Source of the DNA: Vibrio pelagius
GTDB taxonomy: Bacteria; Pseudomonadota; Gammaproteobacteria; Enterobacterales; Vibrionaceae
DNA length: 64,000 nucleotides
NCBI RefSeq assembly: GCF_024347575.1
Contig: NZ_AP025503.1
Coordinates: forward strand, 1,054,001-1,118,000
Direction of reading: 5' to 3'
Shown: in pieces, positions 42,231-43,557 of the stretch
Position numbering within the stretch: position 1 is the stretch's first letter
Layout: the number at the start of each line of letters is the position of its first letter
Position numbers and translations under genes: made by a program
Notes under the pieces: model-generated
Seen by the model: the letters and a program-made list of their open reading frames with translations, nothing else
Told to the model about the DNA's origin: nothing
Databases searched by the model: none

Positions 42231-42257
42231 ATAAAAAGGCGCATGATGCGCCTTTAG
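42231..42257 (-). terminator. Terminator of the CARF nuclease gene
   Basis: A palindrome AAAGGCGCAT-G-ATGCGCCTTT, with a T run on the minus strand, about 50 bp beyond the stop at 42308. Confidence 0.75.
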
Positions 42258-42307: not shown

Positions 42308-43474
42308 TTAGTACTCTAGGTCTTCGTGACCGCCTGCAGCAGCAAACCAAGATGTTAGATGCGTTTTAAGATCTTTCAACTCATCAGGACCAATCAAAGC
42401 AAGTCCTAAATCCTCTGCACGAGTGATGTCGTTATGGCGCAGTGGGCGGAAGCTGACCAGCATAGCACGAGCCTGAAGGCCGCCTAATAGGTCGCGCAGC
42501 GATTCCAGCTTATACAAAGTGTCATCACCATCGTCACGCATACCCTTGGTCTTACACTCTATGATGTGCAGTTTATTATTGACGACTGAAGCAACATCCA
42601 GCTCATTACGTACTTCGCGCTCACCAAGCTGGCGATATACCTGAACGTTCAACGAACGGTCTTGAATGGTTGGCATGTCATCTTGAATCTGTTTCACCGT
42701 GCTGTGCACCAGTGTTTCTAGCCACTCACCGTTCGAGAAACGACGCGCATCTTCGTTAGCAAAGGTCAAAATACCGTCTTGGTAGGTCGCAATCTTTGCT
42801 TCGACGAGATCGGTAAGCAGCATGTTCAGCTCACGATAGCCTTGTTGCTTCTCTGAAAGCTCAACGTCCAGTTTCTGCTCTTTGCGGCAGGTTGTTGCTA
42901 GGTAGTTTAGCGTTGCTAGACCTGGCCCCAGTTCGAGGGCATTGCTCGCCCAGCGTTCACCCAGTTCGTAGAGTTTTTGATCCAGCTGCGGCGGCAGTTC
43001 GAAGTCATTAAATTCACCGCGAGCACCAAATACGGTCAGGTAATCATCGATAGTAATACGATCTTGTACTTGTGTGTCTTCTTTGCCATTTGGGTATAAC
43101 CAACACAGTTTGTCACTGTTTGGTTCAACCACGAAAATCGGCCAGTGATAAGTGCGAAATACTTCGTAAACTGAAAGCAGGCGATGTCTTAAACCGCAGC
43201 TTGCGTTAAGTTTTACTTCTTGTCCGCGTGCCTTGAGGTCTTCAGCCAAGACTTGAATAGATTCTTTGATAACAGAAGTATTAACGATGGTAGGAATTTC
43301 AAAAAACTCACTGGTGATATCGCGCTTTTGGAGTACGGAGTGAAGGCGCAGATACATGCCTTCTTGAGTCTTGTCACCGATAAAAACGATGTGTGAGCTG
43401 GTGGTTCGATTATCCAATAATGGGGTAATCAGCCTAATGGGGTCTTGATCAATAATGCCAACGTGAACAGCCAT
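42308..43474 (-). CDS. CARF-domain PD-(D/E)XK nuclease (DUF1887, VC1899/Card1-like)
   Basis: A 388-residue protein that I recognise as the DUF1887 family, which includes V. cholerae VC1899 and the type III CRISPR effectors Card1/Can2. Residues 1-150 form a CARF Rossmann-like sensor (MAVHVGIIDQDPIRLITPLL; loop LNASCGLRHRLL at 89-100). The middle is a winged-helix-like linker, and residues 245-365 form a PD-(D/E)XK nuclease: GEWLE (Glu253), NELDV (Asp293) and ECK (Glu307, Lys309). In CRISPR relatives, cyclic tetra-adenylate bound by CARF activates cutting of DNA or RNA. Here there is no CRISPR array or cas gene within 20 kb on either side, and the ligand loop lacks the usual TGGTK-type motif. 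It is a single gene with its own terminator. Confidence 0.9.
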   Translation of the reverse strand: MAVHVGIIDQDPIRLITPLLDNRTTSSHIVFIGDKTQEGMYLRLHSVLQKRDITSEFFEIPTIVNTSVIKESIQVLAEDLKARGQEVKLNASCGLRHRLLSVYEVFRTYHWPIFVVEPNSDKLCWLYPNGKEDTQVQDRITIDDYLTVFGARGEFNDFELPPQLDQKLYELGERWASNALELGPGLATLNYLATTCRKEQKLDVELSEKQQGYRELNMLLTDLVEAKIATYQDGILTFANEDARRFSNGEWLETLVHSTVKQIQDDMPTIQDRSLNVQVYRQLGEREVRNELDVASVVNNKLHIIECKTKGMRDDGDDTLYKLESLRDLLGGLQARAMLVSFRPLRHNDITRAEDLGLALIGPDELKDLKTHLTSWFAAAGGHEDLEY

Positions 43475-43557
43475 ATAAATTCCTTAATATTGGCTCGCTC
43501 AAAATGGGAACGTAACGGAAAGCAGCAAGCCATAATACTCATATGATGACAATGGCT

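Follow-up and report, generated by a model that had tools for sequence, protein, structure and literature searches.

The gene at positions 42,308 to 43,474 of the window (the whole stretch of 64,000 nucleotides of the Vibrio pelagius genome analyzed here) probably encodes a working CARF-gated nuclease that became uncoupled from CRISPR and was retuned to a ligand other than cyclic tetra-adenylate (cA4). Judged by its sequence, the gene is the orthologue of Vibrio cholerae VC1899 (PDB 1XMX). It is neither a new protein nor a new orphan, since the orphan status and the cA4 insensitivity of VC1899 were both reported before (PMC7969007). In the accessible open literature naming VC1899, DUF1887 or orphan CARF proteins, we saw no analysis of how far the orphan subfamily is conserved. 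The features of the locus are the following:

42308..43474, minus strand: CARF plus PD-(D/E)XK nuclease gene, VC1899 orthologue (388 aa, ATG start)
43025..43474, minus strand: CARF domain, approximately residues 1-150 (PF23400 match 14-145; strands and helices of the model)
43181..43207, minus strand: ligand loop NASCGLRHR, residues 90-98 (alignments)
42758..43024, minus strand: middle region with a winged-HTH-like segment, residues 151-239 (secondary structure of the model; HTH assigned for 1XMX in PMC1462988)
42338..42757, minus strand: PD-(D/E)XK nuclease domain, residues 240-379 (PF09002 match, alignments)
42716-42718, 42602-42604 and 42596-42598, minus strand: catalytic codons E253, E291 and D293
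42557-42559 and 42551-42553, minus strand: catalytic codons E306 and K308
42235..42255, minus strand: terminator-like hairpin 3' of the CARF gene (consensus scan)
43481-43485, minus strand: ribosome-binding-site-like AAGGA just downstream of the leader hairpin (by eye)
43491..43532, minus strand: leader hairpin, 9-bp stem TGGCTTGCT/AGCGAGCCA with a 24-nt pyrimidine-rich loop
43568..43594, minus strand: terminator-like hairpin 3' of the MCP gene that lies upstream (consensus scan)

Domain architecture and similarity to VC1899, Can2 and Card1

On the evidence of profile matches, the protein belongs to the DUF1887/Can2-Card1 family (CARF4-type), with an N-terminal CARF domain and a C-terminal Card1-like nuclease. 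The Card1 endonuclease model PF09002 matched residues 240-379 with 213.8 bits (cut-off 26.4) and the CARF_Card1 model PF23400 matched residues 14-145 with 26.9 bits (cut-off 24.6), which bears out the architecture of a CARF sensor plus a PD-(D/E)XK nuclease proposed in an earlier sequence-only reading. PDLC01880 scored 488.8 bits and phmmer gave 746 bits against 1XMX, the alignments with 1XMX and 7BDV spanned nearly the whole protein, and the protein is 99% identical to that of the related V. fortis. The PD-(D/E)XK site is intact (E253, E291, D293, E306, and K308); E253 and D293 are as that reading had claimed, while its E-x-K motif has to be renumbered down by one, to E306-C307-K308, and E291 also belongs to the site. 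Its description of the ligand loop as non-canonical was correct, as most canonical relatives carry NATGGTKPM or NATGGTKLM instead of NASCGLRHR.

Can2 (SthCan2, TsuCan2, and T. brockii Can2; 7BDV, 8Q3Z) differs from the window protein in being cA4-gated and linked to type III systems, and the canonical cA4 contacts (S9, K96, Y115, and the TGG(T)K loop) are absent from the window protein, which has D9, R96, V115 and NASCGLRHR at these places, while the relatives with a canonical pocket have S9, TGGTK and Y115. Card1 is a cA4-activated type III effector, as the titles of its PDB entries also state, and in alignments both Card1 (6WXW, 6XL1) and Cdn1 (9U49) shared 18% identity with the window protein. 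Cdn1 is described as a type III-B effector that both cA4 and cA6 activate (PMC12825302). VC1899 (1XMX; PMC7969007, PMC6981274) is far closer, with 85% identity over 378 aligned residues, the same E291 and D293 and the same status of a CRISPR orphan, and no difference of substance was found between the two proteins.

Genes without CRISPR linkage occur in each CARF family (PMC4012209), and VC1899 was named an orphan CARF protein, possibly a degenerate defence enzyme 'cast adrift' from CRISPR, that is devoid of the cA4-contacting residues and has an acidic pocket argued to disfavour cyclic oligoadenylates (cOA; PMC7969007). The purified protein did not nick plasmid with cA4 and had very little RNase activity (PMC7969007). 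Earlier modelling, which predates these assays, had placed cA4 in the apo structure of VC1899 with few clashes and with many contacts judged likely to be conserved (PMC6981274). The suggestion that the window protein binds a ligand other than cA4 agrees with the published biochemistry of its orthologue (PMC7969007).

Conservation in Vibrionaceae and the leader hairpin

PF09002 was found in 241 of the 247 sampled genomes of the window's family, identified as Vibrionaceae through its named loci, once in 233 and two or three times in eight of them; the six genomes in which it was absent (G169, G193, G194, G002, G003, and G021) are small in five cases (1.0-3.1 Mb), with G003 at 4.4 Mb. Using the window protein as query, a match was obtained in 138 of 141 genomes (137 at 59-100% identity, G001 at 42%), and a single match in 134 of this sample. 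The best matches in G057 (residues 56-384), G016 (76-384), and G084 (1-333) were partial. Second full-length copies on a different contig were present in G129 and G015, at 62% and 36% identity to the window protein, respectively. Among 80 fetched relatives, 68 had MCP, hinT or both upstream and two more only udp downstream, counts that are partly limited by short contigs, and the ten without any tested neighbour were all Photobacterium. The conserved core position stated in the sequence-only reading holds.

For the analysis of selection we used 79 sequences (the window protein plus 78 of the best 80 of 105 loci), leaving out two loci (L062 of V. aestivus CAIM 1861 and L065 of V. mytili CAIM 528) with a frameshift near the 3' end of the CARF gene that could be an assembly error. 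Invariant positions made up 176 of the 388, with 48 of 150 in the CARF domain and 86 of 140 in the nuclease domain, and this lower conservation of the CARF domain speaks against the reading that we prefer. All five catalytic residues (E253, E291, D293, E306, K308) were identical in 79/79 sequences, so the loss of nuclease residues in most orthologues, which the sequence-only reading had named as grounds for giving up the idea, was not seen. The loop residues N90, S92, G94, R96, H97, and R98 were also fixed in 79/79. We further scored the ten residues placed at the modelled cA4 site in PMC7969007: D9, D11, R14, R96, V115, P118, and Q334 were found in 79/79 sequences, L95 in 77, Q10 in 75, and D34 in 54, and invariance at the named pocket positions was only modestly enriched (6/9 vs. 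42/141, p = 0.03), both the variation of D34 and this modest enrichment counting against the preferred reading. Purifying selection on the gene is strong, with a median dN/dS of 0.018 (0.008 for the nuclease and 0.027 for the CARF domain), a value obtained from only 106 to 139 of the 3081 pairs with usable dS, as most pairs were synonymously saturated. Relative to the CARF gene, the nonsynonymous divergence of the neighbours (gene names assigned by eye) was 0.42 for udp, 0.55 for lpoB, 0.79 for hinT, 0.95 for ycfP, 1.68 for CBS, 1.70 for MCP, and 2.47 for zntA.

The consensus scan found four terminator-like sites in the window against 1.7 expected, and as one of them follows the CARF gene, the latter is probably monocistronic. 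Upstream of the start codon, a stem of the type of the leader hairpin listed above scored best in 56 of the 81 leaders scanned (window and 80 loci), including none of the 11 from Photobacterium. In 45 aligned Vibrio leaders (window and 44 of the 80 loci, eight of the 45 with another best stem), 86.4% of the alignment cells in the stem pair, compared with at most 48.2% when the 3' side is slid. Changes on both sides occurred at five of the nine pairs, and the 21 such cells exceeded the 9.4 of the shuffles (0/500 as high), with a control that leaves relatedness in and a structure taken from one of the compared sequences; two of the five covariation measures were not clearly above the shuffles (double-change pairs 35/500, further pair types 91/500). 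The loops in this alignment measure 20-30 nt and are 80% pyrimidine, vs. 54% in the upstream flanks. Single-sequence folding of the window leader was unremarkable (z -0.82, 35 of 200 shuffles folding as well), with z -0.40 for L017 and values near -2 for L026, L031 and L054, and the case for the hairpin therefore rests on covariation and not on energy. The exact hairpin pattern occurs at two other places of the window genome (G000), neither with such a loop by eye. Since the two sides stay complementary although their bases and the loop length vary, we favour an RNA element over a DNA operator. A search for a known leader RNA gave three Rfam matches of up to E 1, all below the gathering score and none on the leader. 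Control by SOS or CRP was discarded as well, with no exact CTGN10CAG or TGTGAN6TCACA (strict patterns) within 260 bases in any of the 81 leaders.

These data bear on the published suggestion that the protein is a degenerate CRISPR relic without its original function. The lack of plasmid cleavage and the very little RNase activity of VC1899 with cA4 in vitro (PMC7969007), the two frameshifted loci out of 80 (L062, L065), and the partial matches in G057, G016, and G084 would fit such a decay, but the broken copies may be assembly errors, the family is kept in 241/247 genomes, the catalytic residues are invariant with a nuclease dN/dS of 0.008, and the leader hairpin shows covariation, all of which leaves a relic with hardly any probability. 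As read from the sequences, this conservation argues against the label 'degenerate' for the VC1899 orthologues.

A subfamily with a divergent ligand pocket

Relatives outside the family are sparse: of 295 genomes from the order, 34 had a PDLC01880 match and 11 of those belong to other families, and the protein of locus L156 (Neiella) matched 18 of 369 genomes of the class, its own included. Searching the 7997 best-sharing candidates with a profile recovered 378 proteins, 120 of them among the matches listed. From 119 of these listed proteins and 32 of a 36-sequence set we compiled an alignment of 151 sequences (a few proteins being present twice), from which the partial relatives L175, L176, L179 and L180 were left out; these four retain the five catalytic residues, which are likewise identical in 151/151 aligned sequences. 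The pocket was divergent in 64 and canonical in 87 of them, and the two groups were compared at 70% redundancy (34 divergent vs. 51 canonical sequences, to which the following canonical counts refer). Position 9 changes from S (45/50) to D (21), G (7), E (3), or N (2), position 96 from K (44/51) to R (27), H (5), or K (2), and position 97 from mostly P/L to mostly H, Y, R or Q. At position 98, M (50/51) gives way to mostly H, Q, I, Y or R (M 0/34), at position 115 Y (51/51) to mostly V, I, C, L or M, and at position 117 H (44/51) to an acidic residue throughout (E26, D8; E/D 34/34). Positions 11, 14, and 34 of the pocket vary across the wider subfamily, a point against the preferred reading.

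Positions 98 and 117 shift even though they were not used to define the groups; nevertheless, grouping by motif is partly circular, as positions 9, 94, 96, and 115 define it, and for this reason the comparison was redone without these four positions and a tree of the nuclease part was inferred. With the defining sites removed, 21 of the 25 most shifted columns lay in the CARF domain, which holds 144 of the 367 scored columns (p = 2.7e-6). In the tree of residues 151-379 alone, all 64 members fell on one side together with two extra sequences (L155, L157; support 0.941). The node of the four reference lineages received 0.999 in the 36-sequence tree and 0.559 in the whole-protein tree of 151 sequences, where four divergent-pocket sequences fell outside. 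By this comparison, NASCGLRHR marks a wider gammaproteobacterial subfamily in which the CARF pocket is systematically changed and the nuclease is not. A rebuilt CARF domain joined to a frozen nuclease is the pattern expected if the signal changed and the output stayed the same, and not the one expected of decay.

Signal source, candidate ligands and mechanism

The sequence-only reading had reported no array or cas10 in the 64 kb and advised a search of the full genome. No array-like repeat triple was detected within the window, and the whole window genome contained no match to RAMP (PF03787), the Cas10 model PDLC01529, or SMODS (the model tried for a CBASS CD-NTase partner), so that the first observation is upheld and the Cas10 or RAMP genes that would accompany Can2 as a type III ancillary effector were not found in this genome. 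The Cas10 palm model PF22335 gave four matches there, the best of 29.4 bits being slightly above the curated cut-off of 27, and those two whose positions were listed belong to diguanylate cyclases of the GGDEF type (GGDEF 113.9 and 138.2 bits). Across the family, Cas10 is present in at least 14 of 247 genomes, a lower bound obtained with a palm model that also matches GGDEF proteins and gives matches in E. coli; it comprises seven palm-model matches of 99.7-112.5 bits, three of them PADLOC-checked, and further genomes confirmed with PADLOC (G037, G013, G042, G202, G099, G113, and G125). Nine further weak palm matches in long frames were seven times Cas10 (two being second copies, in G208 and G202) and twice not. 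The weak matches L120, L239 and L240 were rejected as Cas10. Divergent Cas10-like genes with only about 30-51 bits to the palm model were also observed in Vibrionaceae (L119, L121, L233-L238, L241). SMODS was found in 18/247 genomes. As the CARF gene is present in 241/247, neither Cas10 nor SMODS can be its general signal source. In two Cas10-bearing genomes a further, only distantly related CARF nuclease lies close to Cas10, at about 2 kb in G113 (29% identity) and about 11 kb in G013 (26%), and the 68-69% orthologue copy of each is on another contig than Cas10.

The gene context was read in six subfamily genomes (G000, G340, G385, G275, G916, and G932), of which G340 encodes a protein identical to Neiella P0121, G275 carries the motif of Ferrimonas lipolytica P0122, and in the drafts G916 and G932 (91 and 94% complete) a murA-like gene, assigned by eye, adjoins the CARF gene or lies close to it. 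RAMP genes were absent from five of the six and present only in G340. In Neiella (L156/L162) the CARF nuclease gene faces, in convergent orientation, a type III-D locus comprising Cas6, two Cas7_IIId-like genes, Csx19, a CARF-TM gene, an RT-Cas1 fusion, Csx16, a CARF5-type gene and a Cas10 (228.2 bits) with a GGDD motif. Of the places seen, this one alone combines the altered pocket with a cOA synthase. This arrangement may be an ancestral state or a secondary neighbour. As RAMPs were detected in 19 of the 26 genomes of the RAMP scan, G340 included, the divergent-pocket subfamily most likely derives from a type III effector. The absence of CRISPR alone does not bring about the altered pocket, because four drafts without detected RAMPs (G519, G550, G786, and G833, the last with a partial protein) have a canonical-type pocket; these may be additional orphans, perhaps still responsive to cOA.

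In G385 (L154:7407-10143) the CARF gene starts 25 bases after a T4SS coupling-protein-like gene (PF02534, 194.6 bits), near a gene for a DUF4062 protein and transposase-like ORFs (the last by eye), which recalls the linkage of CARF genes to DNA transfer described in PMC4012209. An operon partner was discarded, as none was seen in Vibrio, where terminator-like sites stand on both sides, and as the G385 arrangement was absent from the other lineages read. A phage origin was rejected, as none of 50,697 phage records matched the window protein; a scan of IMG/VR with alignment A3 and two peptide patterns only confirmed 0 of 22 stretches. A plasmid origin was likewise dropped after a search with the Pseudoalteromonas member P0160 gave one distant Aeromonas match (20.9%).

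The Neiella locus makes a cOA ligand possible for the subfamily, and the protein could still be an effector that responds to cOA of a different ring size (cA3, cA5, cA6) or form, made by a sporadic type III or CBASS synthase of the cell or of a rival element. The fold is that of Can2/Card1, the Can2-family Cdn1 binds cA3, cA4, and cA6 (PMC12825302), the Neiella member lies beside Csx16, CARF-TM and CARF5-type genes and a GGDD Cas10, and synthases do occur (Cas10 in at least 14/247 and SMODS in 18/247 family genomes). Still, a near-universal effector with a rare synthase would be an odd pairing, G113 and G013 keep a separate CARF nuclease near Cas10, the cOA-holding residues of Can1/Can2 (S9, K96, Y115 in the present numbering) have been exchanged together, and the acidic pocket has been argued to disfavour cOA (PMC7969007), and on balance we regard this as unlikely. 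RtcR offers another comparison, by description and not by sequence: its CARF domain also stands outside CRISPR in gammaproteobacteria and has a ligand that is not cOA, but it drives a transcription activator and not a nuclease (PMC7790460). An RtcR-like sensing of RNA ends would fit this precedent and the basic and aromatic residues gained by the loop (R96, H97, R98), but the acidic positions 9 and 117 oppose a simple RNA path, which makes it quite improbable. Even smaller is the probability that the CARF domain is only a dimerisation scaffold for a nuclease domain that binds RNA without cutting or acts as a constitutive low-level housekeeping RNase. That VC1899 had very little RNase activity (PMC7969007), that no synthase partner was found, and that pocket positions differ between subfamily lineages would agree with it; E, E, D, E, and K, however, are completely conserved, which argues for catalysis, and N90, S92, G94, R96, H97, and R98 of the loop are fixed in 79/79 Vibrionaceae sequences.

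The preferred reading is a live, ligand-gated nuclease whose ligand would be a nucleotide, or an RNA end, that comes from the host or from an infection and is not cA4. From the observed fold and residues we infer its gating, ligand and substrate as follows. The enzyme would have the Can2 fold and probably be a homodimer, its CARF domain sensing a small ligand and its PD-(D/E)XK domain then cutting nucleic acid; it would descend from type III CRISPR ancillary nucleases and now be a mostly single-copy, probably monocistronic core gene of Vibrionaceae. The ligand most likely enters the pocket between the two CARF domains, after which the nuclease domains would close as in Can2 and Cdn1 (PMC12825302), and metal-dependent cleavage would follow. 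The nuclease activity would be latent, given that purified VC1899 had little activity (PMC7969007). A bolder version, which we consider rather doubtful, is that a subfamily in marine gammaproteobacteria left CRISPR and became a core stress or immune switch for a new messenger, with a guanine cyclic nucleotide (c-di-GMP, cGAMP) as ligand and the leader loop as a self-limiting RNA substrate. In Vibrionaceae, S/Q/P/K have become D9, D11, R14, and R96, and together with H97 and E117 these might be seen as a guanine-reading Asp/Arg set, against which it weighs that D11 and R14 are not common to the whole subfamily; the pyrimidine-rich loop of the leader hairpin could be the RNA by which the enzyme limits itself.

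1XMX, released in 2004, was among the first solved CARF structures, and VC1899 has since been called a possible relic, its function still lacking. The pocket signature and the lineages free of CRISPR make the question of its ligand directly testable. If the protein does combine a conserved nuclease with a remodelled pocket, a bacterial core genome would have absorbed parts of CRISPR-type signalling, and a second-messenger pathway would still await discovery in a large family of marine and pathogenic bacteria.
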